Origin: Candidatus Saccharimonadota bacterium | GTDB taxonomy: Bacteria; Patescibacteriota; Saccharimonadia; Saccharimonadales; Saccharimonadaceae | Length of the DNA stretch: 64,000 bases | Reading direction: 5' to 3' | Assembly (NCBI GenBank): GCA_028286395.1 | Contig: JAQBRS010000005.1 | Coordinates: 1 to 64,000 of the forward strand | Part shown: positions 7,448-35,161 of the stretch, piece after piece | How positions within the stretch are numbered: position 1 is the first letter of the stretch | Layout of the letters: the number at the start of each line of letters is the position of its first letter | Program-made: the position numbers and the translations under genes | Notes under the pieces: model-generated | Told to the model about the DNA's origin: nothing | Database searches by the model: none | Seen by the model: the letters and a program-made list of their open reading frames with translations, nothing else

Positions 7448-8149
7448 TTAGATACCAACGCCCATTGTCATCATGGTGCCCGATTTAGAATTTGCCTGAC
7501 CGGAAGCCTGAATCTCTATCGCAAGCAACGTGTACGTCTGAGTTGTTGGCGACGTTAGTCCAAAACTTTGGGAGCCTGCAATACCTATTTGGTAAGCATA
7601 GTAGGCTGTATAGGCACCAGTAGCCGTATGATACCCATCCTGTGTGGTTTGTATGGGGGGACCCGATCCCACATAAGTAATCGTTCCCGTTGATGCGTTC
7701 CAATCACCATCAAGCCATGAAACCATGCTCCCAGCACTGACAACGGTTATTGTCCCTGTTGCCGCTCCCGTTGTGCCGTTTATGTAACACAGTGATGGCG
7801 CAGGGCCCAATTGGGCCCCTGTCCACCCTTCGAGGACCATTGATACGTACCCGGTAACTCCTCCGGATATAGTGACGGATACGGTGATCGCTGATCCCCC
7901 AGCCGTTACTATCCCTGTCCATATGGCGGCATAGCAAGTGCTAGCTACTTTGTTTTCTGTACGTTTTGTCCACGTAATACCTCCCCCTGTCGCACTCGGT
8001 GTGCCTGCGGGCGATCCTGTATCCTCTGAAACTACTTTCAACACAATAAGTTCTCCTGTAACGGGAGTAAAAGATGGCGTCGTGATTGTTTGGTTGATCG
8101 TATTACTGACGCTGTTAACGTTGTAGGATTCGGCGAGTACCACTGCCAT
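7448..8149 (-). CDS. Beta-rich tail-fibre-like protein, 233 aa
   Basis: A 233-residue Ser/Thr/Gly-rich protein with almost no Lys and no signal peptide or membrane helix. It reads as one beta-sandwich domain: GGGITWTKRT about residues 54-63, YAAIWTGIVTAGGSAITVSV about residues 73-92, and a final LLAIEIQAS strand. The order of these strands resembles, weakly, the domain in the 1125-aa tail protein (residues 181-396) and in the pilin at 16036-17109. It is the last gene of a three-gene minus-strand operon and abuts the gene upstream with no gap. I cannot assign a function; a surface or virion structural role is inferred from composition and company. Confidence 0.6.
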   Translation of the reverse strand: MAVVLAESYNVNSVSNTINQTITTPSFTPVTGELIVLKVVSEDTGSPAGTPSATGGGITWTKRTENKVASTCYAAIWTGIVTAGGSAITVSVTISGGVTGYVSMVLEGWTGAQLGPAPSLCYINGTTGAATGTITVVSAGSMVSWLDGDWNASTGTITYVGSGPPIQTTQDGYHTATGAYTAYYAYQIGIAGSQSFGLTSPTTQTYTLLAIEIQASGQANSKSGTMMTMGVGI

Positions 8150-9055
8150 TTATGCGTAAGCCCCGTTCAATTGAATTTGGGCTAAAGAAACAGCTGTGGT
8201 ATCCGCAAGTGTGGCGAGTCCTGTAAGTGCATACGCAATACCTGTCGAAAATGTGATCCCTGTCGGAGGTATCGGAACCATCACACCACCGTTAGGCGGA
8301 ATCATAAAGGTCATCACCGGAGTATCCGTACCGACAGTTGGCGCAGATGCCTTGTTATACATTTTCAAGAAAGCAACTGTTGCTGAGTTATTTGTTGCCG
8401 TCAGCATGTATAAGACACCCGCAGATGCTTTCACGAAGGTGGCATTCGTAGTTGCTGCAGAAATGAGGGTAAAGCCTGTTGCGCCACCGGTTGTTTGAGT
8501 GGTGATGTTCACCTTACCAACAAGGTTGGCACCAGTGGCAAGGATTGCAGTCGTCTGTAAAGAAGCAGCGGTAGCCTGGCCAACGGTAACGATTGGCTCA
8601 ATCGCCGTCGACACCGCCGCCATTTTTATGGTCGCAGTACCCGTACCTGTTATAACCGTGCTCAATCGAACCCTAAAGGCATTGAAACCATCCACTGATG
8701 TTGACCAGGCACGGTTAGCAACTGCACTCAATGTATACGTCGTTTCTGTCGTATACGAGTCAACACGGCCAAGAGCGATAGCAAACCAGGTCGTTCCTGC
8801 GTCCGGTGACGCCTCGAATGTTAAGACTCCGGCCGTCATAGTAGAGGTGTTCGACATAGTCATCGTCATGGTGCTGTAGCCAGTTGTTGCGATTGTAAGG
8901 GCGGTATTTACTGTTGTTGCGCTCGTCCAAGCAGCGGTGCTGAGAGCAGTCGTGCTACCAGATGTTTGGATAGCCACCTGATCGGATGCGATAACAACAG
9001 GAGCGCTATTGGCGCTTGTTGCGGATCCATTCGTGTTGGGTGGAATATATGCCAT
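8150..9055 (-). CDS. Phage virion-type structural protein, 301 aa
   Basis: A 301-residue Ser/Thr/Ala-rich beta protein. The N-terminal segment SANSAPVVIASDQVAIQ (about residues 15-31) is a motif I know from many phage and prophage structural proteins. A jelly-roll-like domain about residues 40-150 (LTFEASPDAGTTWFAIALG) and a C-terminal domain (MYNKASAPTVGTDTPVMTF) are also typical of phage decoration or tail proteins. There is no signal peptide. It is the second gene of the operon 9785 to 7448. Whether it still serves a phage or has been taken over by the cell cannot be read from the sequence. Confidence 0.65.
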   Translation of the reverse strand: MAYIPPNTNGSATSANSAPVVIASDQVAIQTSGSTTALSTAAWTSATTVNTALTIATTGYSTMTMTMSNTSTMTAGVLTFEASPDAGTTWFAIALGRVDSYTTETTYTLSAVANRAWSTSVDGFNAFRVRLSTVITGTGTATIKMAAVSTAIEPIVTVGQATAASLQTTAILATGANLVGKVNITTQTTGGATGFTLISAATTNATFVKASAGVLYMLTATNNSATVAFLKMYNKASAPTVGTDTPVMTFMIPPNGGVMVPIPPTGITFSTGIAYALTGLATLADTTAVSLAQIQLNGAYA

Positions 9056-9065
9056 AAATTTTAAC

Positions 9066-9785
9066 CTACTGTACTATCCAGTTAGAGCCATTGCTGACGA
9101 AGTCGAGACTCATATTCGCAATTGGCATTGCCGCCGACACGCTCCCGTCAATTGTCTGTGAGCTTGTTGTCGCAACTGTCACAACATTCGAACCCGTATT
9201 CGTCACAGTATAACGGTTTGTGTTACTAACCGCCGTCGGAAGTGTCAGTGTCGTCGTTCCAGATACGTTGTACACGTAATCCGTTGCGGTTATCGCACCT
9301 GCTGTCGTTGCCGTCGATATATTCAGAACCGAACGCGTTACCCCTGAACCACCGCCAGATGGCGCTGCCCACGTCGGCACACCACCTACTATCGTAAGCA
9401 CTTGGTTCGTCCCACCTGCGTGAAGCAATGCGAGTTCGAGATTCGACCCAACGTAAAACAAGTCGCCACCTGCCCCGCTACTTCCGTCGACCATCAACAT
9501 AACTTTTCGCGTCAAAGCCGCATTTTGGACGACCGTATAGTAGAGCAAGCCATTTAAGTACTCGAACGCTCCCTCTTCTGGGCTCGTCAATAATGGTCCC
9601 GAGGAAAGTTTCATAGGGGCTGTCCCCGCCACAGTTGTTCCTGGCCGAAGTGTAATATGTTGGTGACCACCGTTAGCAGCATTATCAGTCGCATCATCAT
9701 AATGCTCTTTTTTGAGGTACTGATTAAGAATGGTACCCCAAGCACCATCATCACTGCTTACTATCGGTAGTCGCTGCTGGACCAC
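9066..9785 (-). CDS. Tail-fibre-like protein, 239 aa
   Basis: A 239-residue protein starting at GTG 9785, with GGAGGG 10 bases upstream. The N-terminal segment RLPIVSSDDGAWGTILNQYL followed by NAANGGHQHITLRPGT and a GTAPMKLSSGPLLTSPEEG stretch (about residues 55-73) is a phage tail-fibre/tail-spike module. After a Gly-rich hinge (PSGGGSG, about residues 140-146) there is a second beta module ending in MSLDFVSNGSNWIVQ, also common in tail proteins. It heads the minus-strand operon, divergent from the two larger tail proteins. The 148-bp gap between the operons carries the promoters; nothing else is visible there. Confidence 0.7.
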   Translation of the reverse strand: MVQQRLPIVSSDDGAWGTILNQYLKKEHYDDATDNAANGGHQHITLRPGTTVAGTAPMKLSSGPLLTSPEEGAFEYLNGLLYYTVVQNAALTRKVMLMVDGSSGAGGDLFYVGSNLELALLHAGGTNQVLTIVGGVPTWAAPSGGGSGVTRSVLNISTATTAGAITATDYVYNVSGTTTLTLPTAVSNTNRYTVTNTGSNVVTVATTSSQTIDGSVSAAMPIANMSLDFVSNGSNWIVQ

Positions 9786-9913
9786 TATTCTTACACCCTC
9801 CTCGCAGGTAGAATTAACCGACTGTCTATAATCATAAGCTAGAAGTCAAACTCAGGCAAGTCTCACTGCATATTAAGGCATCGGGTGAAAATATTGGTTG
9901 TCTCCCTCATTTT

Positions 9914-9922
9914 TGCTATAAT
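9914..9922 (+). promoter_or_regulatory. Extended -10 promoter of the plus-strand tail-protein operon
   Basis: TGC followed by TATAAT, with the ATG of the 440-aa gene 11 bases after the box. The predicted leader is about five bases, so translation is leaderless or nearly so. No ribosome-binding site is present. Confidence 0.65.
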
Positions 9923-9933
9923 CATGAGCATAT

Positions 9934-11256
9934 ATGATCATTCTTAAAGCAACTACCGAATCACTTCAGATCGTCACTAGTACTGCCGCAGCGATCGACC
10001 TTTCTGTTTCCTATACAGATATCACCACAACAACATTTGGACCGTCCTCATTTGAAGTAAAAATCACGAGTGCGACAACCACTTCCATCGTCGCCGCACC
10101 GGCCGCTTCAACGCAACGACAAGTAAAACTGATTACTATCACAAACCGCGATGGGACCTTATCGTCAGCCGTGACAATCCAGAAAAATATCTCAAGTGTT
10201 CTTTACAATATAACGCCTACGATCACCCTTCTGATTGGCGAAACCGTCCAATACATGGATGGCCAAGGCTGGATCTATTATTCTGCAACTGGTGCCCCTA
10301 AAGGAAATCAAACAGCAGCCGGGAGCAACACTCAGCTTCAGTTTAATAACGCCGGAGTTCTTGCTGGAGATTCTGACCTCACCTGGAATAATAGTACGAA
10401 CACACTTGCATTAGGTACCAACCCGCAAATCAATATGAGCGCAGTTGCATCAACACCAGCAACACCGGGAGCTGGAACACTTTCACTTTACGCGCAAGCC
10501 GTAGCTGGGAAAATGCAACTCGCAAAAGTCGGACCAGACGGTAACCCTGAGGCACTTCAGGCAGCACTTTGGCAAAATAATACCGTATTCTGGACGCCAG
10601 GCGTCGCTGCCGGTGTCTACCAAGGGACGTCAGGATCTAACTTGGGAACCGCGGCCCTCGTCTTGCCGACAACGACCAACCTATACACTGCGATGCGTCG
10701 ATCTACTTTTGCAAGTGTCGTGACAACCACAAACCAACAAGTCGGTATTCGTACGGAAAACATGTTTTGGCGCGGAAACGTCGCCGGACAAGGCGGTTTC
10801 CTATTCGTCTGTCGATTTGGATTTACATCCTGGACAGCCGGCGACCGACTTTTCGTAGGCTTAACATCTGGTACTACCGCAGTCGTTACCGTTCAGCCAT
10901 CAACCGTTGCCAGCACAATAGGGTTTGCGATTGAGGCAGCCGATACTGCGATTACTTTCCTCCACACCGATGGCACACCAACCGCAGTCAAAGATGTCAT
11001 TAGTGGTCAACCAGCTCTCGCGAACAACAATGCCTACGATGCATACATCTATGCTCGTCCAAACGACTCAACGATTTACTATCGACTTGATAATGCCTTA
11101 ACTGGTGCAATACTCATCGATACGTCCATTACTGCGACACTGCCCGTTAACACTACTATGCTTGCTGCACAGGCGATTATGAGTAACGGCGCAAATACAG
11201 TTGTTGGTAACGCGACCCTCGGTGTCAACCGCCTGTACGTCGAGACAAACCGCTAA
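9934..11256 (+). CDS. Phage tail-fibre/receptor-binding-like protein, 440 aa
   Basis: A 440-residue protein without signal peptide. Residues 1-16 (ILKATTESLQIVTS) and about 49-127 (APAASTQRQVKLITITN ... VQYMDGQGWIYY) form a module frequent in tailed-phage virion proteins. Residues about 205-440 form a second module with FWTPG, a MRRSTF segment, GGFLFVCRFGF, NDSTIYYRL and the terminal LGVNRLYVET. I know this arrangement from phage tail-fibre receptor-binding ends. Both modules recur in the next gene, which is therefore a larger paralogue. No capsid, terminase or integrase gene is nearby, so a domesticated surface adhesin is as plausible as a prophage remnant. Confidence 0.75.
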   Translation: MIILKATTESLQIVTSTAAAIDLSVSYTDITTTTFGPSSFEVKITSATTTSIVAAPAASTQRQVKLITITNRDGTLSSAVTIQKNISSVLYNITPTITLLIGETVQYMDGQGWIYYSATGAPKGNQTAAGSNTQLQFNNAGVLAGDSDLTWNNSTNTLALGTNPQINMSAVASTPATPGAGTLSLYAQAVAGKMQLAKVGPDGNPEALQAALWQNNTVFWTPGVAAGVYQGTSGSNLGTAALVLPTTTNLYTAMRRSTFASVVTTTNQQVGIRTENMFWRGNVAGQGGFLFVCRFGFTSWTAGDRLFVGLTSGTTAVVTVQPSTVASTIGFAIEAADTAITFLHTDGTPTAVKDVISGQPALANNNAYDAYIYARPNDSTIYYRLDNALTGAILIDTSITATLPVNTTMLAAQAIMSNGANTVVGNATLGVNRLYVETNR

Positions 11257-11280
11257 ACATAGGACTGAGATGACTACCCA

Positions 11281-14200
11281 ATGCTACTCCTAAGGGCGAC
11301 AACTGAATCACTTCAACTCACTTCCAGCACAGTAGGTGGTTTGACGACGTATCAATTCCCTTCTGACAATAACCACTCGCCAGGAAGCGCCTTTAACGAT
11401 GCGACAGATTTGGTCATAGGGGTACTAGTGGCAGTTACTCAATCTTCAATCTCAACTGGAACTCGATTCTACTCGCCATCTCCAGGTGTCACCGTTACGC
11501 CGCTCTTATTTGATGACGCGACGAATAACATGCTTGCCAGTGGCCCATCAGTTGTTACTTCGGGTACGGGCTGGGTGTTCCTTCCTTTTTCACTGCCCTA
11601 TACGCTTAGTCCAGGTGTTTCATATGTTGCGGCCGCTCTTACGCTTGGAGGGCAATATTATGCGGCTACAGGAACAAGCTTTCCTTATACGGACGGGCCT
11701 GTCTACAATACCGCCCCTGATGCCGGCCGGTGGCTATACTCATCGTTCCCTAAAAACCCTACAAATACTGTCACGACACGCTACGGCATAGACATCGTCG
11801 TACAGTCAGGTGCGTTTGCGCCTGTACCGATCCTTATCGGAAGAGCCTACCAAAACCCGGGTCAAAGCAATACACTGACGGTGACACCAGACTCCACGCT
11901 CTCCGTTGGTAACTGGATGATACTCGTCCTTAGCACTATTTCAGGGACAACGGTGACGAATCCTTCTGGTTGGACGGTCCTACAATCCTATACGGTCGCA
12001 GGGACATTGGGGGTCGCGATCTACGCAAAAGTACGCGCAGCGGGAGAATCTACCTATAGCGTGACGCTCAATGCTAACGGCGTCGTCTCGACACTCACAT
12101 TATTTTGGGGAAATGGCGCTGACGCTATCAGCAACTGGATCATCGGAACGAATATGTTACGTGGTTCAATTACTCCAACAACGACCACGAATACCGTGGC
12201 GCCTAGTATCACGACAACGGCAAGTAATACGCTTGCGTTAGTGATTACTACTGAACGAACAATTGCCGACGAGAGTGGCATCATCAGCATGGCTGGTGCA
12301 ACGCCATGGTTTTATGGAAAACAAAGTGGTTCAGCGCAACTGGAGACAACAACTATTGGTATCATTGCCCAGACAGCCCCTGGTGCCACGGGTGATGTGA
12401 CGACGGTCTATCCAAATACCCAAGCGGTAAATGCTATGGCTATTCAAATTGGCATTCCTCCAGGAAACGGAACGCTTCAGTTTTCGGCATCTTTTAGTGA
12501 CACGCTTAGTGGGGATGTCACAAATTCCAGTAATGAGGGGGTTATTACCACAGCAACATCGACAGCAGTTATACCAGCCCCCGCTAGCAGCGTATTCCGA
12601 CTCGCCAAGCTCATTACTGTCGTCAACACAGACCTGTATGTTACCAATTCCCTCTTATTCCAAAAGAATAGTACAGGTACCCTGTATGCAGTCAGCCCCC
12701 TGTTCACTTTACTTCCTGGAGAAATGGTCCAGTATATGGACAAGGTTGGGTGGACGTACTATGCGGCGAACGGAGCGATAAAATCAGACTCGTCACTGAC
12801 GCTTAATTCAAACGGGCTCGTTCAATACAATAACTCGGATATGCTAGACCTCACCCTTGGAGGTGCGACACCCTGGATACAACAGCTAAAATCTGGCGTA
12901 CAGAATTGGAATTGCCTTGCATCCTCAGCTGACGGGACAAAACTAGCCGCTACCGCTGGAACAGGATATATTTATACCTCTACTGATTCGGGTGCAACAT
13001 GGGCGGCCCAAACCGCACCAGACTTACAAAACTGGCAGGCAATTACTTCATCCGCTGACGGGACAAAACTAGCCGCCGCAGTGTTTGGCGGGTATATATA
13101 CACATCCGCAGACTCTGGCCTGACATGGACACAGCAGACAGGCTCGACGTCACAAAACTGGTGGGCAATGACTTCCTCACCAAATGGCATGATCCTCGCC
13201 GCCTGTGTATCTGCAGGGTATATCTACACATCCATAGATGGCGGAGTGACGTGGACACAACAAACCGCATCGCCAACACCAGGATGGACCTCAATTACTA
13301 TGTCGGCCGATGGCACAAGGCTTGCCGCCGTCGCAGGGGTAGGATATGTGTACACTTCGCAAGACTCAGGAGCAACCTGGGTACAAAGGACAGGCTCAAC
13401 GTCACAAAACTGGCAGGCAATTACTTCATCAAACGACGGGACGAGAGTTGCAGCTGTAGCAAATAACGGATACATCTATACCTCACGGGACCTGGGGGTG
13501 ACGTGGACACAGCAGACAGGCTCGACGTCACAATATTGGCAATCTATCACTTCTTCGGTCGATGGAACACGGCTCACCGCTGCAGTATTTAGCGGCTACA
13601 TATATACGTCTGCAGACTTTGGAGTGACGTGGACACAACAGACCGCAGCAGGGTTCCAAACTTGGTCTTATGTTGCGTCTTCTGCTGACGGAACAAAACT
13701 TTCTGCTGTAGCTTACGGAGGCACTGCATATACGAGCTCTATTGCATCCGGATTAAGTTGGTCGTCTGGCCCAAATCCTTTTGGGACAAACATTCTTGCG
13801 CTCCAATATGGAAGTCCTTCGGTACAACTCAACGCTCGAACAACTGATCCGACACTGAGTCCTGGCGCAGTAACCCTCGGTCTCTACGCGCGATCAACCG
13901 CAAGTAATCCTATGCCATCCCTTGTTGATCCAACCCTGTCTCCTGTGAGTCTGCAATCATCGCTATATCAACGAAATACTTTCATGTGGACGCCTGGTCC
14001 AACCAACGTCGGAACATGGTTTAACACAAACGGTGCGACAATCGGAAGTGCGGCCAGTGTATCTCCAGCAACGACCACCTTGTATACGACAATGCGCCGA
14101 TCAACCTTTTCCTCCGTCGTTACCACCACCAATCAACAAGTAGGCTTACGTACGGATAATACATTCCTGCTCGGTCTTACTGCCAGAGCAGGCGGCTTCT

Positions 14201-14658
14201 TCTTTAGCTGTCGATTTGGTTTTGATGTCATTGCAACGGGTATGCGTGCCTTCGTTGGTTTTTGCCCAAGCACGGTCATCGTCAGCGGTGATCCATCAAC
14301 AAGCCTTAACACACTCGGCTTTGGCTTTGACCTAGCCGATACCGCCTGGAGCTTCTATCACAACGGCGCAGCGGGAACAGCAACAAAAGAAACGATAGGT
14401 GGCCAAGGAACACTCGCAACAAATAATACTGGCTATGACGCCTACATCTGGTGTAATCCAGGAAGCACCGTCGTTTACTATCGTCTCGATCGCACCGATA
14501 CGGGCGCGACTATCGTTGATAGCTCAGTGAACACAAACCTCCCCGCTAACAGCACTGCACTTATGGCGACCGCACAGATGAGTAACGGAACAGCCAATAT
14601 CACCGCCAGTGCCGCCGTCCTTGGTGTGAATAGAATCTACGTCGAAACAATTCGTTAA
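11281..14658 (+). CDS. Large modular tail-fibre-like protein with seven-blade BNR propeller, 1125 aa
   Basis: A paralogue of the upstream 440-aa protein with three insertions. Order: start tag LRATTESLQLTSS (1-16); a beta domain about 19-178 resembling DUF4082; a domain about 181-396 with PSGWT, FWGNGA, TERT, GATPWFY and QIGIPP, shared with the pilin at 16036-17109; the backbone module about 425-501 (LPGEMVQYMDKVGWTYY); seven 42-residue repeats about 536-830, each ending in an Asp-box such as TSADSGLTWTQQT; and the C-terminal receptor-binding-like module about 885-1125 (FMWTPG, GGFFFSCRFGF, LGVNRIYVET). It has no signal peptide. It lies 24 bases after the previous gene in one operon. The Asp-box propeller suggests glycan binding or protein scaffolding; no sialidase catalytic set is visible. 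Confidence 0.75.
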   Translation: MLLLRATTESLQLTSSTVGGLTTYQFPSDNNHSPGSAFNDATDLVIGVLVAVTQSSISTGTRFYSPSPGVTVTPLLFDDATNNMLASGPSVVTSGTGWVFLPFSLPYTLSPGVSYVAAALTLGGQYYAATGTSFPYTDGPVYNTAPDAGRWLYSSFPKNPTNTVTTRYGIDIVVQSGAFAPVPILIGRAYQNPGQSNTLTVTPDSTLSVGNWMILVLSTISGTTVTNPSGWTVLQSYTVAGTLGVAIYAKVRAAGESTYSVTLNANGVVSTLTLFWGNGADAISNWIIGTNMLRGSITPTTTTNTVAPSITTTASNTLALVITTERTIADESGIISMAGATPWFYGKQSGSAQLETTTIGIIAQTAPGATGDVTTVYPNTQAVNAMAIQIGIPPGNGTLQFSASFSDTLSGDVTNSSNEGVITTATSTAVIPAPASSVFRLAKLITVVNTDLYVTNSLLFQKNSTGTLYAVSPLFTLLPGEMVQYMDKVGWTYYAANGAIKSDSSLTLNSNGLVQYNNSDMLDLTLGGATPWIQQLKSGVQNWNCLASSADGTKLAATAGTGYIYTSTDSGATWAAQTAPDLQNWQAITSSADGTKLAAAVFGGYIYTSADSGLTWTQQTGSTSQNWWAMTSSPNGMILAACVSAGYIYTSIDGGVTWTQQTASPTPGWTSITMSADGTRLAAVAGVGYVYTSQDSGATWVQRTGSTSQNWQAITSSNDGTRVAAVANNGYIYTSRDLGVTWTQQTGSTSQYWQSITSSVDGTRLTAAVFSGYIYTSADFGVTWTQQTAAGFQTWSYVASSADGTKLSAVAYGGTAYTSSIASGLSWSSGPNPFGTNILALQYGSPSVQLNARTTDPTLSPGAVTLGLYARSTASNPMPSLVDPTLSPVSLQSSLYQRNTFMWTPGPTNVGTWFNTNGATIGSAASVSPATTTLYTTMRRSTFSSVVTTTNQQVGLRTDNTFLLGLTARAGGFFFSCRFGFDVIATGMRAFVGFCPSTVIVSGDPSTSLNTLGFGFDLADTAWSFYHNGAAGTATKETIGGQGTLATNNTGYDAYIWCNPGSTVVYYRLDRTDTGATIVDSSVNTNLPANSTALMATAQMSNGTANITASAAVLGVNRIYVETIR
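12886..13770 (+). repeat. Seven tandem ~126-bp repeats encoding Asp-box propeller blades
   Basis: Seven in-frame units of about 42 codons each. A unit runs W-x2-I/M-T-S-S-x-D-G-T, then A-A, then GYIYTS-x-D-x-G-x-T-W. Units 2, 3, 5 and 6 are closest at DNA level, for example the recurring CAGGCTCGACGTCACAA. Unit 7 has a degenerate Asp-box (SSIASGLSW). Seven units suit one closed beta-propeller. Confidence 0.85.
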
Positions 14659-16035: not shown

Positions 16036-17109
16036 TTAGCTCGGAGGAAGTCCGATTTGGAATGCAGTACCGTTAACCGTTTGCAGGTTTGGATATGTCA
16101 CAACGACTGGGGTTGAAGTTGTCGCAGTGGCAAGTGTTGCATAACTCAAGGTAATTGTTTGAATTTTAGCGGGAGTATTATCGATTTGTGGAACATAAAA
16201 CCATCGTGTCGCACCCGTCAAGGAGCTTATATCTGTCTCTGTTATACTCGTGCGTTCAGTGCTGATAGATAATACAAGAGATTGAGGGACTGTCGTTGTT
16301 ATAGTTGGCGTTGTTGTTATATATTGCTGACCTGTTGTACCGTTCCTGTTTGCAATTGAGCCAAGTATCCAACTACCAAGATTGCTCGACGCGCCCGAAC
16401 CCCAGAACATAACCCCGTTAGCGGTGGCCGGGTTGATCGATCCTGTCACTGAAAATGTCGATGGGTCAGAAGATGTTTTGATTTTTCCAAACACCATAGT
16501 CGTCAAAGTACCTGTTAGGTTTCTTGCGTAGAGAGTCGTCCAGCCACTTGGTGGTACTGCATCTATTGGTGTGGCCACGTTGTATGCCATCACCATTATC
16601 ATCCAAGAGCCATCAGGTATTGCCGGGAATGGCAGGCTTGTCATAGTAAGTGAGCCACTAAAGTCATAGTACCCCGCCACAACAGGTGCCGAAGCTCCCG
16701 TAGGACTATCCCCTGGGCACGTTCCTGCCGTTGCCGAGGTCGCCTGAGTAATAAAGTAGGCATTGGATCCATTAACTGCTGTGACACAGAATGTCTGTGG
16801 GTTCGCCGTATTATCGACGGTATATTGATAGGTCGTCCCTGCACTCGCAGGAACACCCTTGCCGCCATCGGTCGCCGCCAACGTTGCCGGATACCCACCG
16901 TTGATCGTTTGATCAATCTTCAACTTCTTTGAAACGGCATTAAGGTCGCTTGTAACGAGGGCGACTTTTGCTCTATTGGATACACCATTAAAGGCCGTGA
17001 CTGTGATTGCAGCCAAAATGCCGATGACGACAATAACGATCAAGAGTTCAACAATAGTAAACCCTTTTAAGCGTGAATCTGTATGAAGTTGAGTAAGCTG
17101 CCCAGCCAT
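16036..17109 (-). CDS. Type IV pilin-like protein fused to a tail-protein-type beta domain
   Basis: A 357-residue protein. The prepilin signature is G16|FTIVELLIVIVVIGILAA, with Glu at +5 of the predicted mature N-terminus, followed by the usual long N-terminal helix. A pilin-like globular part about residues 40-140 carries two cysteines (QTFCVTAV and AGTCPG) in the D-region position. The C-terminal ~210 residues are a separate beta domain with PPSGWT, MFWGSGA, TERT, GATRWFY and QIGLPP. The same landmarks in the same order occur in residues 181-396 of the 1125-aa tail-fibre-like protein. Pilins are inserted in the inner membrane and processed by PilD; none of the assembly genes are in this window. 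An adhesive minor or tip pilin is the likely role. Confidence 0.8.
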   Translation of the reverse strand: MAGQLTQLHTDSRLKGFTIVELLIVIVVIGILAAITVTAFNGVSNRAKVALVTSDLNAVSKKLKIDQTINGGYPATLAATDGGKGVPASAGTTYQYTVDNTANPQTFCVTAVNGSNAYFITQATSATAGTCPGDSPTGASAPVVAGYYDFSGSLTMTSLPFPAIPDGSWMIMVMAYNVATPIDAVPPSGWTTLYARNLTGTLTTMVFGKIKTSSDPSTFSVTGSINPATANGVMFWGSGASSNLGSWILGSIANRNGTTGQQYITTTPTITTTVPQSLVLSISTERTSITETDISSLTGATRWFYVPQIDNTPAKIQTITLSYATLATATTSTPVVVTYPNLQTVNGTAFQIGLPPS

Positions 17110-27415: not shown

Positions 27416-28609
27416 TTATAGACCGGTAGGGAGTCTCTCGCTGAGATTCTCGTGCCCCGTCTCCGTAATTAAAATGTCGTCTTCGATACGCACGCCAATT
27501 CCCTCTTCTGGAATGTAGATGCCTGGCTCAACAGTCAGAATCATGCCTGGCTTGAATTCATCGGGACCCCCAAGTGAATCATGAACATCGATGCCTAGTC
27601 CGTGACTGACTGAGTGTGGGAAGTATTTTCGGTAGTCAGCCTTCTCTTTTAGAATTCCAAGCTCATTCAACGCGACTAACATGATCCTGTCGACTTTGTC
27701 GAAATACGCCTTTACATTCAGGCCCGGTTCAAGCAGATCAATAATTTTGTGATGCGCTGTTTCAACTGCAAGGTGCACGGCGCGATGTCGATCAGATACT
27801 TCACCGTGAGCGTAGGTTCGCGTAATATCGGCAGCGTAGCCATTGTATCGTGCACCGACGTCAAGCAATACCAATGCTCCAGGAACAAGTGGGGCTTGGT
27901 TTTTACTGTAGTGTAACGTTACTGCATTCTTACCTGCCGCGACAATCGGATCATAGGCATGCCCACGGGCGCCTTTTTTTCGAAAGTAAGCAGTAAAGTC
28001 AGCCTCGATTTCATACTCAAACGAATACTGATGGATTGTGTTTCGTACCAGCTCAAAAGCTTCCGTGGTGATCGTAATAGCACTTCGAATCAGATCAATT
28101 TCCTCGGGCTGCTTAACCGCCCTTAGTGCTGCAAGTGCCTTACGGCAATCTTGCACCTCACCGAATAGTTCCTGTAGTTCATGAAGTACATCAACGGGGC
28201 CAGGATTTAATGCAAAATCATAGTGTCCTTTTCTGGGATCTTCACCGAGACTTGCCACTGTTGGCTCAAAATCTTTCAGGTTTTCAAGTAGTTCCTGCGC
28301 TTCTTGATATGACAAAACTTCATCAACACCACTCGTTTTCTTTGCTTCGTCGTTTGAAAGTGAACCGTCAAACGTTCGATGGACTTCGTCAACATCCGGC
28401 GCAACTAAAGATACTTTTTCTTTTTGAATAATCAGCCGCCAACCAGCCGTATCAATACCCGTCAGGTACCAAAAGTTCGCTTCCTGTTCAAATGCATACG
28501 AGGCATCGTTTGAGCGCTGCACTAGAATGTTACCTGCAAAAACAAGAACATCGGCCCCTACGACATCAAAAATAGCCTGACGATTATGAGTAAAAAAGTC
28601 TTTGTCCAT
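27416..28609 (-). CDS. pepP: Xaa-Pro aminopeptidase (M24 family)
   Basis: A 397-residue metallopeptidase removing an N-terminal residue ahead of proline. An N-terminal creatinase-like domain is followed by the pita-bread catalytic domain. The metal ligands are visible in LDVGARYNGYAADITRTY (two Asp), HSVSHGLGIDVHD (His), LTVEPGIYIP (Glu) and GVRIEDDILIT (Glu). A TACAAT box lies seven bases ahead of the ATG, so the message is probably leaderless. It follows the Fn3 protein gene by 15 bases. Confidence 0.93.
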   Translation of the reverse strand: MDKDFFTHNRQAIFDVVGADVLVFAGNILVQRSNDASYAFEQEANFWYLTGIDTAGWRLIIQKEKVSLVAPDVDEVHRTFDGSLSNDEAKKTSGVDEVLSYQEAQELLENLKDFEPTVASLGEDPRKGHYDFALNPGPVDVLHELQELFGEVQDCRKALAALRAVKQPEEIDLIRSAITITTEAFELVRNTIHQYSFEYEIEADFTAYFRKKGARGHAYDPIVAAGKNAVTLHYSKNQAPLVPGALVLLDVGARYNGYAADITRTYAHGEVSDRHRAVHLAVETAHHKIIDLLEPGLNVKAYFDKVDRIMLVALNELGILKEKADYRKYFPHSVSHGLGIDVHDSLGGPDEFKPGMILTVEPGIYIPEEGIGVRIEDDILITETGHENLSERLPTGL

Positions 28610-28624
28610 TCAGTCTATTGTAAA

Positions 28625-29590
28625 CTATGGCTTCGCAGTACGGCCAAGTTCTTCAGTTGAAAATGAGGCGTGATCGGCATCAAAGCCAGCAGTTACTGCT
28701 TTAACATGGAAATAATAAGCCGTGTATGCCTTTAGCCCTGTAGCATCACCGGATGTTGCGGTCGTCGTCAGCCTCGTGACATCTTTCACAAAACTATCAT
28801 CTTCCGAATATTCGACGACGTACGACAATGCGCCATCGGTTGCTTTCCACGAATAGTGCAATGCCGTACTTGAAACTGTCGTGACTTTCATTTCTGTGGG
28901 AGCAACAGAGATTGGGTTCGTCATTGCTGAAAGTGTTGGTGACCACGCGCTTTGTCCCAGCGAGTTGCTTGCGGAAACACGACAGTAATATTGTCCGTCT
29001 CCCCCAAGATCACTCAGTGTTATTGCGGTCGTGTCAGTTGTTTTTGACTTGAGGCCAATAGTAAAGTCTTTGTCATTAGCACACTGTACTGTGTATGACG
29101 CAGCATACGGTGCCGTCTGCCAAGAAAGGCTCACAGCACCTGCACCGACTGAACCAATCGCGACTTCAGATGGAGTTAATGGCGGAACCGTTGCACTGTC
29201 AGAACAGCTCCCCTTCACTGGCGCATCTTCAGGAGTTGATTTGTCCATATGGAAGACAATTTTTGCGTCGCTCTTACTGGTTCCCGCGATACAATATGCG
29301 GTTCCCGACGCACTGACTGACGCATTGATAACTACTTTGTCTGTCGATTTCACTCCGGCTGGAACACTCGAAGGGAAAATGTTCCCTTTGGCTGATAATG
29401 TAATGATTTTGTTTTGCTTAATGAGTTCTGTTTTTACATCACTTTCAAGGACAGCCTGATGAACACTACGATACACAAGCAACGCAATGCCTGCAATAAC
29501 AGCAAGAATAACAGCAGCAACAATAATTTTGATCAGAACGTGTTTATTCTGCCGTAGCTGTGGTTGAGGTGTTGTCGTAGGTTCCATCAT
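28625..29590 (-). CDS. Membrane-anchored pilin-like protein with two fibronectin type III domains
   Basis: A 321-residue protein with a cytoplasmic N-terminus, one membrane helix about residues 19-42, a pilin-like external region, and two Fn3 domains (about residues 135-218 and 225-315). The external region has the Cys pair AYCIAGT and VKGSCSD, spaced like the Cys pair of the neighbouring pilins. The first Fn3 domain (VQCANDKDFT ... YYCRVSASNSLGQSAWS) is closely related to the Fn3 domain inside the adjacent pilin-collar protein. It has no FTIxE prepilin motif, so it is not a PilD substrate. It starts 6 bases after that gene, in one operon. A partner or anchor for the chimeric pilus subunit is a reasonable inference. 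Confidence 0.7.
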   Translation of the reverse strand: MMEPTTTPQPQLRQNKHVLIKIIVAAVILAVIAGIALLVYRSVHQAVLESDVKTELIKQNKIITLSAKGNIFPSSVPAGVKSTDKVVINASVSASGTAYCIAGTSKSDAKIVFHMDKSTPEDAPVKGSCSDSATVPPLTPSEVAIGSVGAGAVSLSWQTAPYAASYTVQCANDKDFTIGLKSKTTDTTAITLSDLGGDGQYYCRVSASNSLGQSAWSPTLSAMTNPISVAPTEMKVTTVSSTALHYSWKATDGALSYVVEYSEDDSFVKDVTRLTTTATSGDATGLKAYTAYYFHVKAVTAGFDADHASFSTEELGRTAKP

Positions 29591-29596
29591 TATTCC

Positions 29597-31023
29597 TTAA
29601 TACTTAATCGCAAACATTTTAGTAATCGACGGCTGAATCACATTGTATGCAGCTCCTCCACCCGTCCCATTGGTAGATATATTTTGACCATACGAGCCTC
29701 CTGCGGCATCAGCTTTATAGTCATTACGAATCGCCGAACCACCAGCAAGTGGGTTCGTCACGTACTGCGCATGACTATGAACTGGTAGCTCCGATAACGT
29801 CATAATATGGGTCTTTTCACCAAACTTCTGACCAATTGTCGCAAACTGCGTATCGCTTGCGTTCTTGTTAACTGCGACTCGCCCACGAGCATCAGGCAGG
29901 TTAAACGTCGTCGAACCATCACCGCTACCATAGGTCGTTCCGATCAGCGCAAACAGATCTGAATATGTCGTCCTTGATACTGCAGAGCCATCCTCAAGCA
30001 AGAATCCAGACGGCGCCGTTGCCCACCATCCTTCAATACTGGTTCCAGGTATCATACCCGAATCGTCATTTGTTCCTGTCGCAGCCGCAGTCTTTAGCGT
30101 TGAAGTCTTAGCGATCGAAGGCTGGATGACATTAAATGCCTGTCCACCACCAGCCGGACCAGTATTCGTTCCTTGAGCGTACACTCCACCAGCAGCATCA
30201 GCTGCGTAGTCGTTACGCACTCCCGAGCCACCACTGTTAGCGGTAATAATTTCAACGTGTGAGTGAGGGACCATTTCACCGATTGTCAGAAGGTGTGTCT
30301 TTTCTCCAAACGTCTGCCCGAGTGTCGCGAACTGCGTGTCAGATGCGTTCTTTTCAACACCAACTCTTCCTTGTGAATTTGGAGTACCAAATGTCGTTGT
30401 CCCATTCCCCGCACCGTACGTTGTTGAGATAGCTCCAAACAAATCACTGTAGGTTGTACGAGAAATCGTCGCCCCTGTCTCGGCCAGATAGCCCGTTGGT
30501 ATTGTCGACCAATAGCCTTGAAGCGTTGTCCCTGGAGCGAGTGTTGAGCTAGCTCCCGTTGACGGTCTATATTTAATCGCGTATTGCTTCACGATCGAAG
30601 GCTGAATGACATTTGAAGCCGCGCCTCCACCAGCACCGTTTGTATTGACTCCTTGAGCATAGCTTCCTCCGGCACCATCCGATGAATAGTCATTACGAAT
30701 CGCACTACCGCCACTATTTGCCGAGACGTTTTGCGCATGGCTATGTGAAGGTATTTCGTTCAGGGTAATCGTGTGTGATTTCTCACCGTACTTTTCGCCG
30801 ATAGAATTGAACTCTGCATCTGTGGAACTCAGACCGACGGTCGCACGTCCGCGAGAATCGGGAATATTGAAAGTTGTCGATCCATCACCCGCGCCATAGG
30901 TAGTTCCAATTAAGTTATACAGGTCGGCATATGTCGTTCGAGATACTGCAGACCCATCTTCAAGGAGATATTCATCCGGTGGTGTCGTCCAGTAGCCAGC
31001 AATTGACGTACCGACAGGAAGTG
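29597..31023 (-). repeat. Three tandem ~480-bp repeats encoding tail-collar domains
   Basis: Repeat 1 runs from about 31023 to 30560, repeat 2 from about 30541 to 30090, and repeat 3 from about 30058 to 29597. They share blocks such as GGCTG(A/G)AT(C/G)ACATT near each end and the codons for IRNDY, AGGSY and NVIQPSI. They differ enough to be old duplications rather than an assembly artefact. Confidence 0.85.
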
Positions 31024-31765
31024 AGTCGTAATCATAACAATCCGGATACGTTCCATATTGTTGCGAGTCTGCGCAAGTTCGTTGTTGTGTATTACCTGAG
31101 CCTCCACCACTCCAGTCACTTTGTCCATTCGTATTAAGTGCACGAACTCGACAATAGTAGGTCGTCACTGGGTTTGCGCCCGAGAGACTCGCTGATGTCG
31201 TGGCGGCACCCGTAACGGTTGCTTGAAGAAGTCCAGTAATAAATGCTGGGTCAAGTGCGCATTGAGCCAAATACTGCGTCGCATAGTTTGGTACAGCAAG
31301 TGACCAGCTAACCGAAATCTGAGTTGATCCGGTCGTGAAGGCAACGTTCGCGACCACTCCCGGAATAGGCAGGCTTGCTCGCGCTGCACATGTACCCGAG
31401 GTCGCACCATTTGCCTGTGTCAGGTTATCAATATAATATTTTACGGATGACGATATTGTGGTTGTACCGTCAAGACAGAATGATTTCGAATCAAGATACG
31501 TTGGAGTGATCGTATTATTCGCACTGGGAGTAAAGTTTATCAATGTAAAGGGCACCGGATACGTGCTATTAAACGTTCTGTAAGATTCTGTTTGCGATGC
31601 AGCGTGCTCGAGGTCGCTCTTCAAAGATGAGGTCGCTGTTGACGTTCGCCACGCACCATATGAAACAAGGATAATACCCGCAAGAATAGCGATGACCGAA
31701 ATCACCACAATTAACTCAACTATCGTAAAGGCGGAACGAAACTTGGCTTTTATCATACTCTCCAT
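29597..31765 (-). CDS. Type IV pilin-like protein fused to Fn3 and three phage tail-collar domains
   Basis: A 722-residue protein. The prepilin motif is A12|FTIVELIVVISVIAILAG (Ala instead of Gly before the cut, Glu at +5). A pilin domain to about residue 130 holds the Cys pair SFCLDGT and SGTCAA. An Fn3 domain follows about residues 140-225 (AQCALDPAFITGL ... YYCRVRALNTNGQSDW). Then come three tandem tail-collar repeats starting near residues 248, 409 and 570, each with PGT-type start, GYW, a DGSTTFNxPDxRGR core, GEKxH and an HSH motif (PSHSHAQ, VPHSHVE, PVHSHAQ), closing with NVIQPSI. Collar domains are known from phage tail-fibre proteins; HxH motifs bind iron in T4 fibre tips. Not a frameshift or assembly join: one continuous frame. 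Confidence 0.88.
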   Translation of the reverse strand: MESMIKAKFRSAFTIVELIVVISVIAILAGIILVSYGAWRTSTATSSLKSDLEHAASQTESYRTFNSTYPVPFTLINFTPSANNTITPTYLDSKSFCLDGTTTISSSVKYYIDNLTQANGATSGTCAARASLPIPGVVANVAFTTGSTQISVSWSLAVPNYATQYLAQCALDPAFITGLLQATVTGAATTSASLSGANPVTTYYCRVRALNTNGQSDWSGGGSGNTQQRTCADSQQYGTYPDCYDYDSLPVGTSIAGYWTTPPDEYLLEDGSAVSRTTYADLYNLIGTTYGAGDGSTTFNIPDSRGRATVGLSSTDAEFNSIGEKYGEKSHTITLNEIPSHSHAQNVSANSGGSAIRNDYSSDGAGGSYAQGVNTNGAGGGAASNVIQPSIVKQYAIKYRPSTGASSTLAPGTTLQGYWSTIPTGYLAETGATISRTTYSDLFGAISTTYGAGNGTTTFGTPNSQGRVGVEKNASDTQFATLGQTFGEKTHLLTIGEMVPHSHVEIITANSGGSGVRNDYAADAAGGVYAQGTNTGPAGGGQAFNVIQPSIAKTSTLKTAAATGTNDDSGMIPGTSIEGWWATAPSGFLLEDGSAVSRTTYSDLFALIGTTYGSGDGSTTFNLPDARGRVAVNKNASDTQFATIGQKFGEKTHIMTLSELPVHSHAQYVTNPLAGGSAIRNDYKADAAGGSYGQNISTNGTGGGAAYNVIQPSITKMFAIKY

Positions 31766-31814: not shown

Positions 31815-33383
31815 TTACGATTGAGGCTTTAGGAGTGGCAAAATAAGCTTGGTTTTCTTTTCCCCAATTGCCGCAATCAACGCCGTTTCGTCGGCAGTAC
31901 TGACGCCACGCATACTTCCAAATGTTCGGATAAGTTTTCGTCTTGTCGCAGGACCGATGCCTGGAATTTCTTCGAGGACATTAGCTGTCTGCTTGGCTCG
32001 CTTCAGCACTGTATGATAGCTGATCGCAAATCGGTGTGATTCATCACGAATACGCTGGAACAGTTTCGTCACGTCAGAATAGGTCGAGTGGATTGATGAA
32101 CTACGAAGGTTCTTTGAGTGAGATGATGCGTTCAACTGGCCAACGTGCAGATTGATCACATAATAATCACCGGAAATTGTCACAGCGACATCTTGTGTTG
32201 GATGTTGAATGAACTCTTTTAACGCATCGGTTCCAATGTTCGAACGAGTTCGGTGCACAATAATTTCTTCTTCCCGTTTTGCGATACTGATTGTCGGAAT
32301 TGCGAGGCTGTATTCTTCAACTGCTTTTAAAGCGGCGTCAAGTTGTCCTTTTCCACCGTCGATCAGGATAAGATCGGGCTTACCCCAAGCTTTGAGGTTC
32401 TTCTCGCTCAACCGTCGCTGCAATGTTTCGTGCATATTATAGTAATCGTCATTTTGCTCAATGCGCGTTTTAAACTTTCGATAATTTGCTCGATCACTGA
32501 CACCATTTGTGAATACCACCATACTTGCCACAACATTTGTGCCACCCATATGACTAATGTCATATCCTTCGATACGCACTGGAATTTTCGGGAGCCCCAA
32601 AAGAGTCATAAGACTGCTCAGCGCCTTGTCTTTACTGATGTCCATAAATTCGCGATCACCAAACATAATTTTCTGTTGTAACGATTTTAAGTCACTGATT
32701 TTATTTCGAAGTGCTGCGGCATTTTCAAAGTCGTGTAGCTTTGCTGCAAGATGCATTTCTTTATCAAGCTCGCGAACGATCGCGCTTCGTCCGCCTTCCA
32801 TGTAGCGAATAAGTCGTTTCAATGTCGACTTGTATTCCGCAGAAGACGTTCCTGGTCGTGGACTCAATCCAATATGCGCGTCAAGGTCGGGTCGACCGTT
32901 TTCTTTCGGTGGCGTCGTGTAGTACGGAAATACTTTCCGCAAATAACGAAGGGCTTTTTTAATCGTGTAGCCATTATAGTAGGGTCCAAAATACTCAGCA
33001 CCGTCATCGCTTGGATTACGCGTAAAACTGACTGTTGGCCATTCGCTTTTCAAATCAATGCGAATAAACGTCTCTGACTTATCATCGCGAAGGAGGATAT
33101 TAAATCGCGGCATGTAGCGTTTGACCATTTCAGATTCAAGAAACAGGGCGTCAATTTCGCTTTCCGTCTCGACCCAATCGGTATCGTAAATTTCCTCAAC
33201 CAAAGCACGGGTTTTGACATCCATATCTCTCGTACTTTGAAAATATTGACGAACCCGATTCTTTAAGACCGCCGCCTTGCCAACATAAATAATTTCGCCC
33301 GATTTTGCCTTATGAAAATAAACGCCTGCTGAGCGCGGAAGGGTTTTTAACTTATCTTGAAGTTTCTGTGTCTTTGACTCCAT
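31815..33383 (-). CDS. uvrC: Excinuclease ABC subunit C
   Basis: A 522-residue protein. It has the GIY-YIG nuclease domain at the N-terminus (LPRSAGVYFHKAKSGEIIYVGKA, shown in part; GYxx replaced by GVYF), a UvrB-binding UVR helix pair about residues 200-235 (ALRNKISDLKSL), the RNase H-like endonuclease domain (IEGYDISHMGGTNVVASMVV, ILIDGGKGQLDAA), and helix-hairpin-helix motifs ending (EEIPGIGPATRRKLIRTFG). It makes both incisions in nucleotide excision repair with UvrA (also in this window). I start at ATG 33383, six bases after a TATAAT box; the longer upstream frame runs through the promoter. Confidence 0.96.
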   Translation of the reverse strand: MESKTQKLQDKLKTLPRSAGVYFHKAKSGEIIYVGKAAVLKNRVRQYFQSTRDMDVKTRALVEEIYDTDWVETESEIDALFLESEMVKRYMPRFNILLRDDKSETFIRIDLKSEWPTVSFTRNPSDDGAEYFGPYYNGYTIKKALRYLRKVFPYYTTPPKENGRPDLDAHIGLSPRPGTSSAEYKSTLKRLIRYMEGGRSAIVRELDKEMHLAAKLHDFENAAALRNKISDLKSLQQKIMFGDREFMDISKDKALSSLMTLLGLPKIPVRIEGYDISHMGGTNVVASMVVFTNGVSDRANYRKFKTRIEQNDDYYNMHETLQRRLSEKNLKAWGKPDLILIDGGKGQLDAALKAVEEYSLAIPTISIAKREEEIIVHRTRSNIGTDALKEFIQHPTQDVAVTISGDYYVINLHVGQLNASSHSKNLRSSSIHSTYSDVTKLFQRIRDESHRFAISYHTVLKRAKQTANVLEEIPGIGPATRRKLIRTFGSMRGVSTADETALIAAIGEKKTKLILPLLKPQS

Positions 33384-33389
33384 ATCTCT

Positions 33390-33417
33390 ATTATATCGGT
33401 GAACGCCATAGTATAAT
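33390..33417. promoter_or_regulatory. Divergent promoters of uvrC and the MFS gene
   Basis: Minus-strand TATAAT at 33390-33395 lies six bases from the uvrC ATG (leaderless). Plus-strand TATAAT at 33412-33417 drives the MFS gene, which has a conventional leader with AAGGGAG ahead of its GTG start. Confidence 0.6.
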
Positions 33418-33445
33418 AGTAAGATTATTTTAAGGGAGTATATCT

Positions 33446-35161
33446 GTGGCGAAAGCTGAAACTGCGCATCCAACTACATCGGCCCATCACCATGCTGAGA
33501 AATTTACTTCACGCCAACGTACGATTGCGCTGGTTATCGTTGCGCTGGCATTTGTTATCGACCTGCTTGATAACACGATCGTTAACATTGCAATCCCTTC
33601 GATTCAGATTGACCTGGGCGCGAGTTACTCCGCAATTCAATGGTTAACAGCTGGCTACGCGCTTGCTTTTGCCGTCCTCCTTATCACAGGCGGACGACTT
33701 GGTGATGTTGTCGGCTACAAAAAACTCTTTATGACTGGCGTCGCCGGATTTACGATCGCTTCACTGCTTAGTGGACTAGCGTGGAGTACTGAAGTGCTGG
33801 TTGGCGCTCGACTTCTTCAAGGGGCAATGGCAGCCCTGATGGTACCGCAAGTTATGTCTCTCATGCAGGTGATGTACAAACCGAAAGAACGCGGTGCAGT
33901 CATGGGGTTGTTCGGTGCGCTTGGCGGACTGGCCGCATCTCTCGGACCCGTTGTCGGCGGACTCCTGATTCAAGCAAATATTGGTGGACTCGACTGGCGT
34001 CCAATCTTTCTGATCAATATCCCTATTGGCCTCTTCGCCTTCTTTGCCGCAATTAAGTATCTGCCTAACGGAAAATCACCCCACCCGCTAAAACTCGACA
34101 TATTTGGTACCGGTCTTATTATCGTAGCACTTGGATTATTACTCTTCCCACTCATTCAAGGTCGGGAGCTGGACTGGCCAGCCTGGGTATTCGTAATGAT
34201 GACGATTTCTCTGCCAATATTCGCACTCTTCTGGTGGTGGCAATTACGAAAGACCAAGAAGGATGGCTCACCACTGATCATTCCTTCCCTCTTTAAAGCA
34301 AATTCATTCCGTGTCGGACTCTTTGTTAACATTGTCTTCCAGATGATCATGCTTGGATTCTTCTTTACCTTTACATTGGTGCTACAAATTGGACTCGGCT
34401 ATAAAGTGCTCGAAGCCGCGTTGACCGGACTCCCAACGGCTGTTGGCATTAGCTTTAGCATTGGCTTCCTTGCCCAAAAGCTGACGAAAAAACTAGGTCG
34501 TTATACTATGTCACTCGGCGCAGTGATCATGGGTGTCGGACTTGGTGCAATCGTCCTCGCACTTGCTATTTCCGGACACGATACGCAGCCATGGGAATTC
34601 ATTCCAGGCCTTCTCTTAACAGGTACGGGTATGGGACTTGTCATGGGACTTATGTTCTCCGTCACGTTGAAAGATGTCGATACAAAGCACGCTGGTTCAG
34701 CCAGTGGAACACTAAACGCTGTTTCTCAACTCGGTGGCGCGATTGGTATTGCCATCGTTGGTGTCATTTTCTTCGGACACCTGACATCAAATGCCGCAAC
34801 CAGTTTTGCGAGTGTTGAGCCGCAAATTCGTTCAGAACTTACTTCGCAAATGGTTCCCGCACAGGCCCAAGATGCAATTCTTAAAAATATTCAAACATGT
34901 TATGTTGACCGCACGAGTCAAAAAGACACCAGCCAAACTCCCGAAAGCTGTAAAGCAATCGAGGCAACCAGTGCAACGCAAACTCCTGGCTCACAAAAAC
35001 TCGGTGACGTTATTGCAACTGCAACCAAGAAAGCTGCCAGCAATAACTTCGTCAATGCGTTCAGCATCACAATGATCTATGCAATATCACTGGTTGGCGT
35101 CACCTTCCTTCTTAGCTTCTTACTTCCTCGTAAGATTGACTTCGAAATGGCAAGTCACTAA
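33446..35161 (+). CDS. MFS multidrug exporter, DHA2 (EmrB/QacA) type
   Basis: A 571-residue integral membrane protein with about 14 membrane helices. The N-terminal DNTIVNIAIPSIQ motif (D-x-T-I-V-N-x-A-x-P), the GGRLGDVVGYKK loop between helices 2 and 3, and the antiporter motif LGGLAASLGPVVGG are all DHA2 features. A 70-residue external segment before the last helix carries two cysteines (QTCYVD, ESCKA). The family exports drugs or lipid-like compounds by proton antiport; the substrate is unknown. It starts at GTG 33446 with an AAGGGAG ribosome-binding site. Confidence 0.9.
   Translation: MAKAETAHPTTSAHHHAEKFTSRQRTIALVIVALAFVIDLLDNTIVNIAIPSIQIDLGASYSAIQWLTAGYALAFAVLLITGGRLGDVVGYKKLFMTGVAGFTIASLLSGLAWSTEVLVGARLLQGAMAALMVPQVMSLMQVMYKPKERGAVMGLFGALGGLAASLGPVVGGLLIQANIGGLDWRPIFLINIPIGLFAFFAAIKYLPNGKSPHPLKLDIFGTGLIIVALGLLLFPLIQGRELDWPAWVFVMMTISLPIFALFWWWQLRKTKKDGSPLIIPSLFKANSFRVGLFVNIVFQMIMLGFFFTFTLVLQIGLGYKVLEAALTGLPTAVGISFSIGFLAQKLTKKLGRYTMSLGAVIMGVGLGAIVLALAISGHDTQPWEFIPGLLLTGTGMGLVMGLMFSVTLKDVDTKHAGSASGTLNAVSQLGGAIGIAIVGVIFFGHLTSNAATSFASVEPQIRSELTSQMVPAQAQDAILKNIQTCYVDRTSQKDTSQTPESCKAIEATSATQTPGSQKLGDVIATATKKAASNNFVNAFSITMIYAISLVGVTFLLSFLLPRKIDFEMASH

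Follow-up and report, generated by a model that had tools for sequence, protein, structure and literature searches.

A single gene of a Saccharimonadaceae genome encodes a type IV prepilin that ends in three tandem domains of the phage tail-collar family. This protein, hereafter the collar pilin, is real and conserved and is a member of the modular pilin class, and its head of three collar modules appears to be new. The gene lies in a stretch of 64,000 nucleotides from Candidatus Saccharimonadota (GenBank assembly GCA_028286395.1, contig JAQBRS010000005.1, positions 1 to 64,000), which is referred to here as the window. The initial annotation, which gave no strand, had described one continuous frame running from a prepilin signal through a Cys-pair pilin domain and an Fn3 domain into three collar repeats, and this frame is borne out: it is on the minus strand, is open throughout with zero internal stops, and encodes the prepilin N-terminus, a putative Cys-pair pilin domain, fn3 and the three collar modules in that order. 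To this description we add the strand, a diverged second repeat, a constant copy number of three, a slot between uvrC and pepP in which heads are swapped, and a paralogous partner gene. The gene and its parts preceding the collar region are as follows.

29597..31765, minus strand: collar-pilin gene, 722 aa from ATG to stop; the same fusion occurs in relatives
31667..31738, minus strand: prepilin N-terminus, with Ala before the cleavage site and FTIVELIVVISVIAILAG after it; N_methyl motif with Glu5
31376..31666, minus strand: putative globular pilin domain with the Cys pair C97/C126, recognised by conservation and paralogous to the partner gene
31109..31348, minus strand: fn3 domain, residues 140-219 (Pfam, 32.6 bits)

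The N-terminus carries a class III signal, with a short leader, Gly or Ala followed by Phe at the cleavage site, Glu5 and a hydrophobic helix; with cleavage between Ala and Phe, this Glu is position 5 of the mature collar pilin. Comparison with N-methylation profiles, proposed in the initial annotation, gave a divided result, as the Pfam N_methyl profile (cut-off 21.2 bits) scores over the cut-off in the whole-genome scan (23.9 bits) and just under it on the collar-pilin protein alone (18.9 bits). The residue at position -1 is Ala in this species and the usual Gly, followed by Phe, in most relatives. In the pilin domain C97 is invariant and C126 is conserved in the alignment rows that have this domain, which is common to other prepilins of the genus and is modelled at low confidence in the full-length AlphaFold model. 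An error of frame or assembly can be ruled out, since frames that join prepilin, fn3 and collar in the same way are found, at 42-88% identity, in genomes that were assembled independently.

Two T2SSF (PilC-type) platform genes are present in the genome, consistent with the pair of T4P systems known from clade G1 Saccharibacteria (PMC12206443), together with 17 prepilin-like N-termini, several of them with other heads (LamG, repeated propeller-like units). Cultivated Saccharibacterial relatives attach to host cells via type IV pili, and Nanosynbacter lyticus binds its host less well when PilX2, a minor pilin whose C-terminal part is a propeller, is deleted (PMC12206443). It is nevertheless conceivable that the prepilin-like helix of the collar pilin acts as a membrane anchor only, and that the protein is a cell-anchored surface protein and no pilus subunit: the gene is located away from the pilus machinery loci, its N_methyl score is near the cut-off with Ala at -1, and its neighbour encodes an uncleavable anchor. 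However, Glu5 and the prepilin motif are kept in the alignment of collar-pilin relatives, the two platform genes are present, and locus four of N. lyticus likewise has an orphan pilin apart from the machinery (PMC12206443); we consider a pure anchor highly improbable.

Further modular pilin-like ORFs with LamG-like, repeated propeller-like or fn3-like parts, read by eye, are seen elsewhere in this genome (L258, L249, L244). Within the window, a second prepilin (16036-17109, minus strand) has a head (residues 139-356) that aligns over 221 aa, at 36% identity, with a segment of a surface-like protein of 1125 aa that also bears DUF4082 and BNR-type repeats (11281-14658, plus strand), and this head is, judging from the alignment, another one common to a pilin and a separate protein. 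The region 7448-14658 contains five beta-rich repetitive ORFs, of which 9934-11256 matches phrog_13925 (unknown function) at 3.8e-26 and 9066-9785 gives a weak match to phrog_37034.

The collar region is made up of the following parts.

30569..30997, minus strand: collar module 1, residues 257-399, identified from Pfam and relatives
30518..30568, minus strand: linker between modules 1 and 2, 17 aa (range in the measured relatives, 17-18 aa)
30089..30517, minus strand: collar module 2, residues 417-559, in this species more diverged than modules 1 and 3
30032..30088, minus strand: linker between modules 2 and 3, 19 aa (range in the measured relatives, 17-19 aa)
29600..30031, minus strand: collar module 3, residues 579-722 (the model covers residues 566-722, pLDDT 85)
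30737..30745, minus strand: HSH of module 1, H341/H343, invariant in 13 proteins
30257..30265, minus strand: HSH of module 2, H501/H503, invariant in 13 proteins
29771..29779, minus strand: HSH of module 3, H663/H665, invariant in 13 proteins and aligned with HKH of T4 gp12

The tail-collar identity of the repeats, claimed in the initial annotation from motifs, is confirmed by Pfam, where Collar (PF07484) matches three stretches of the protein with 165.8 bits (E = 2e-49) and Gp10_C three stretches with 80.7 bits; phrog_9116 (tail protein) also matches, with 321.8 bits. Given this E-value and the six histidines invariant in 13 proteins, the match is far beyond chance. GEKxH and HSH are indeed present in all three repeats, whereas DGSTTFNxP, also attributed to each of them, is found only in repeats 1 and 3 and is replaced by NGTTTFGTP in repeat 2. 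A profile built from 127 modules matches PDB entries 8KEC, 9NXK, 9QGO, 1OCY, 1PDI and 6OV6, which, with the exception of 6OV6, are phage tail-fibre proteins by name, and its alignment to 1OCY spans the whole module and brings the HxH onto the HKH of gp12. The AlphaFold model of module 3 (pLDDT 84.9, pTM 0.72) could be superimposed using VIA-align on the cyanophage A-1(L) tail fibre (PDB identifier 8KEC; Z 11.9), the gp12 receptor-binding domain (PDB identifier 1OCY; Z 10.6 over 96 residues at 2.8 Å) and the T4 long-fibre tip (PDB identifier 2XGF; Z 10.4). On the profile matches and this model, we assign the collar modules to the T4 gp12 receptor-binding fold. Module 3 alone was modelled singly because MAFFT, when used to deepen the three-repeat alignment, put every single-module protein on repeat 3. 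The single-module model is weakest in the head loop after the HxH motif (pLDDT 55-65), a stretch that may need adjacent modules, and the full-length model (12 sequences) gives the collar region a pLDDT of 20-50, at which an association of the three modules in cis is not resolved.

The survey of Saccharibacteria suggested in the initial annotation recovers the same fusion in about 13 other assemblies from two genera, and the public records with the fusion are Saccharibacteria assemblies, including Candidatus Microsaccharimonas sossegonensis. A genome scan found PF07484 in 19 of 394 genomes of the family, nearly all of these two genera; a wider scan of 393 genomes of the class added only two further proteins, with a single module each, and a scan of 380 genomes of the phylum three more single-module ORFs, and the two of these that were inspected have no prepilin motif at their start. 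Both genera share a design of prepilin N-terminus, Cys-pair domain, one or two fn3 and three modules. Variants are a PilX-like N-terminus with a glycine-rich domain and three modules (G192), a PilX-like N-terminus with one module (G127), a prepilin with one module (G180) and a second gene with two modules in a further genome (G194b in G194); three modules are hence not obligatory, the last three being complete proteins.

Exactly three modules are present in 13 of the 16 complete prepilin- or PilX-collar proteins and in one (L101) of 174 other collar ORFs in the fetched bacterial and viral loci, where three ORFs have two modules and the rest one; the Fisher value for this comparison is descriptive and overstates independence, as the triple proteins are related. 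These probably stem, by their sequences, from one or a few triplications. The exceptional ORF L101 (L101:3-3053), from an uncultured Bacilli assembly, carries its three collar modules on a single chain; no pilin part is visible, and the contig cuts off its 5' end. Saccharibacterial repeats form a clade of their own in a tree of collar repeats, and close collar relatives occur in phage contigs as well as in bacterial chromosomes. The initial annotation had concluded that the cell grafted a phage receptor-binding device onto a pilus subunit; the fusion of a pilin with a receptor-binding fold used by phages stands, whereas a transfer from phage to this cell does not follow from such a tree. In the repeat tree, which is based on few columns, repeat 1 groups within genus, and position-wise descent was rejected, as repeats 1, 2 and 3 form no clean clades between the genera.

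In gp12 the fold is a 'knitted' trimer in which His445 and His447 of all three chains bind a single metal on the threefold axis (PMC3004832), and an octahedral six-histidine metal site is seen also in R-pyocin fibres and other spikes (PMC6116203). We infer that the triplet of the collar pilin is one such trimer, folded in cis on one pilin. All 12 proteins that were measured have linkers of 17-19 aa, with loops of widely differing length after HxH, and constant linkers with variable heads would fit three modules closed into one assembly. Among the loci examined, collar genes of phages and bacteria sit singly, paired or in threes, with none of four or more, which is suggestive of a three-part assembly in a sample that is biased, the query having had three copies. 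Seven phage and bacterial loci (L137, L148, L152, L155, L163, L174, L205) contain single-collar genes in a row of exactly three, the genes frequently overlapping or abutting one another, and such triplets could encode heterotrimers.

The modules may instead be independent binding or spacer domains that serve reach or avidity, three in number by chance or common descent. Repeats in surface adhesins often act as spacers, and one inherited triplication, in keeping with the single clade of Saccharibacterial repeats, would yield the same count everywhere. However, HxH is invariant in every module, the low confidence of the single-module head loop is as expected if partners are needed, and no four-module case occurs among the examined ORFs although tandem repeats usually expand and contract; we regard independent modules as distinctly unlikely. 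A different arrangement would be a homotrimeric tip, in which three pilin chains lie side by side and the modules form three stacked gp12-like trimers. Domains of the gp12 type are trimers of chains (PMC3004832), the tip pilins CofB and TcpB are trimeric (PMC8179133), R-pyocin fibres hold two tandem knobs in one trimer (PMC6116203), and fusions with one module exist (G127, G180). Stacking, on the other hand, gives no reason for a near-fixed copy number of three or for linkers of 17-19 aa, and in the flower motif of gp12 the last strand is formed where the chain has come back to the collar (PMC3004832 and, in part, our own reasoning); because of this return both ends of a module would lie at one end, and packing around an axis suits better than end-to-end stacking. 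A homotrimeric tip thus appears unlikely to us.

The genomic setting of the collar-pilin gene is defined by the following neighbours.

31815..33473, minus strand: a gene that we take, from its sequence features, to be uvrC-like; upstream border of the slot
28625..29590, minus strand: partner gene, 321 aa, a pilin paralogue with two fn3 domains, separated by a 6-base gap from the collar-pilin gene
27416..28609, minus strand: presumably, from its sequence features, a pepP-like aminopeptidase gene; downstream border of the slot

Synteny places the collar-pilin gene between uvrC and pepP in collar genomes of two genera. A prophage remnant or prophage tail gene is ruled out by this synteny and the housekeeping neighbours, with no phage structural genes adjoining. 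In congeners that lack a collar at this site the slot is occupied by prepilins with a Laminin_G_3 head (G192, G064), a DUF285 BspA-like head (G170) or a head of no assigned family (G090, G151, G188) and by a short frame (G176), and it is empty in G143, G182 and G127. The partner protein is without the cleavage motif of Gly or Ala before Phe and without Glu5, as read from its sequence, and is 29% identical to the N-terminal part of the collar pilin over 231 aa. Its gene is next downstream in about 10 of 12 collar slots and in 0 of 5 other pilin slots compared, and its nearest matches in the genus come from collar-slot genomes. In one locus (L037, genome G158) both pepP and the partner gene are absent beside a collar gene whose sequence is interrupted by N runs. 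Analogy suggests that the partner may load or cap the collar pilin, as PilA of Streptococcus sanguinis, a partner pilin lacking Glu5, stabilises the modular pilin PilC (PMC9934059).

The initial annotation knew of no described system of this kind. Our literature search likewise found no paper joining tail-collar domains with type IV pilins, though the dataset of PMC8179133 may already list the architecture, and none linking Saccharibacteria with tail fibres and pilins; as a class, however, modular pilins are already described, in 264 catalogued architectures (PMC8179133), and Saccharibacteria themselves have minor pilins with a head at the C-terminus, PilX1 and PilX2 of N. lyticus TM7x, of which PilX2 is needed for full host binding (PMC12206443). 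The latter two have a jelly roll and a beta-propeller as heads and lack a predicted PilD signal (PMC12206443), whereas here the canonical motif is retained in the collar pilin and absent from its partner. S. sanguinis PilB and PilC (PMC8179133, PMC9934059) resemble the collar pilin in their prepilin N-terminus, small pilin module, bulky C-terminal adhesive module and predicted tip position, and PilC also in having a partner minor pilin without Glu5; here, however, the head is a tandem triplicate of a fold that needs three chains elsewhere. T4 gp12 (PDB identifier 1OCY) and the gp37 tip (PDB identifier 2XGF) share the single-module fold and the HxH motif, and gp12 also the sequence profile, but are homotrimers of single-module chains on a fibre, in contrast to three modules per chain on a pilin, and gp12 requires the chaperone gp57A (PMC3004832). 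CofB and TcpB, likened here by their description in PMC8179133, have a trimeric head at the pilus tip that is built from separate chains. The uncultured Bacilli ORF resembles the collar pilin in having three modules per chain, borne by a surface-like protein rich in repeats, and differs in that no pilin domain is seen, its 5' end being truncated.

We propose that the collar pilin is a modular minor tip pilin. Prepilin peptidase would cleave its N-terminus, the helix would then be inserted into the pilus, and the bulky C-terminal part, a receptor-binding head of the T4 gp12 kind, would fit only at or near the filament tip. Within one chain the three tandem modules most likely interlock in cis, with their HxH motifs holding a single metal ion, so that one pilin would bear a complete three-part head, and the variable loops after HxH would touch a surface molecule of the partner cell, a contact that is most likely the first tether in episymbiosis. 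The uncleavable paralogue most likely helps to load or cap the collar pilin. We consider this account of partner-cell recognition, taken as a whole, somewhat probable; that a phage-type trimeric tip was rebuilt as one chain around one metal, as one of several interchangeable heads in a dedicated Saccharibacterial slot, seems to us an evenly balanced proposition.

Little is known about host recognition by Saccharibacteria and other episymbionts, and the collar pilin is a concrete candidate adhesin, whose fold has phage relatives that bind cell surfaces. With a slot that holds different heads in close relatives, head type can be set against host range. If the trimer in cis is true, it would explain why the collar domain occurs in threes and show how a protein of three chains can move onto a carrier that presents one chain, here a pilin that is added to the filament singly and would yet bear a whole three-part head.
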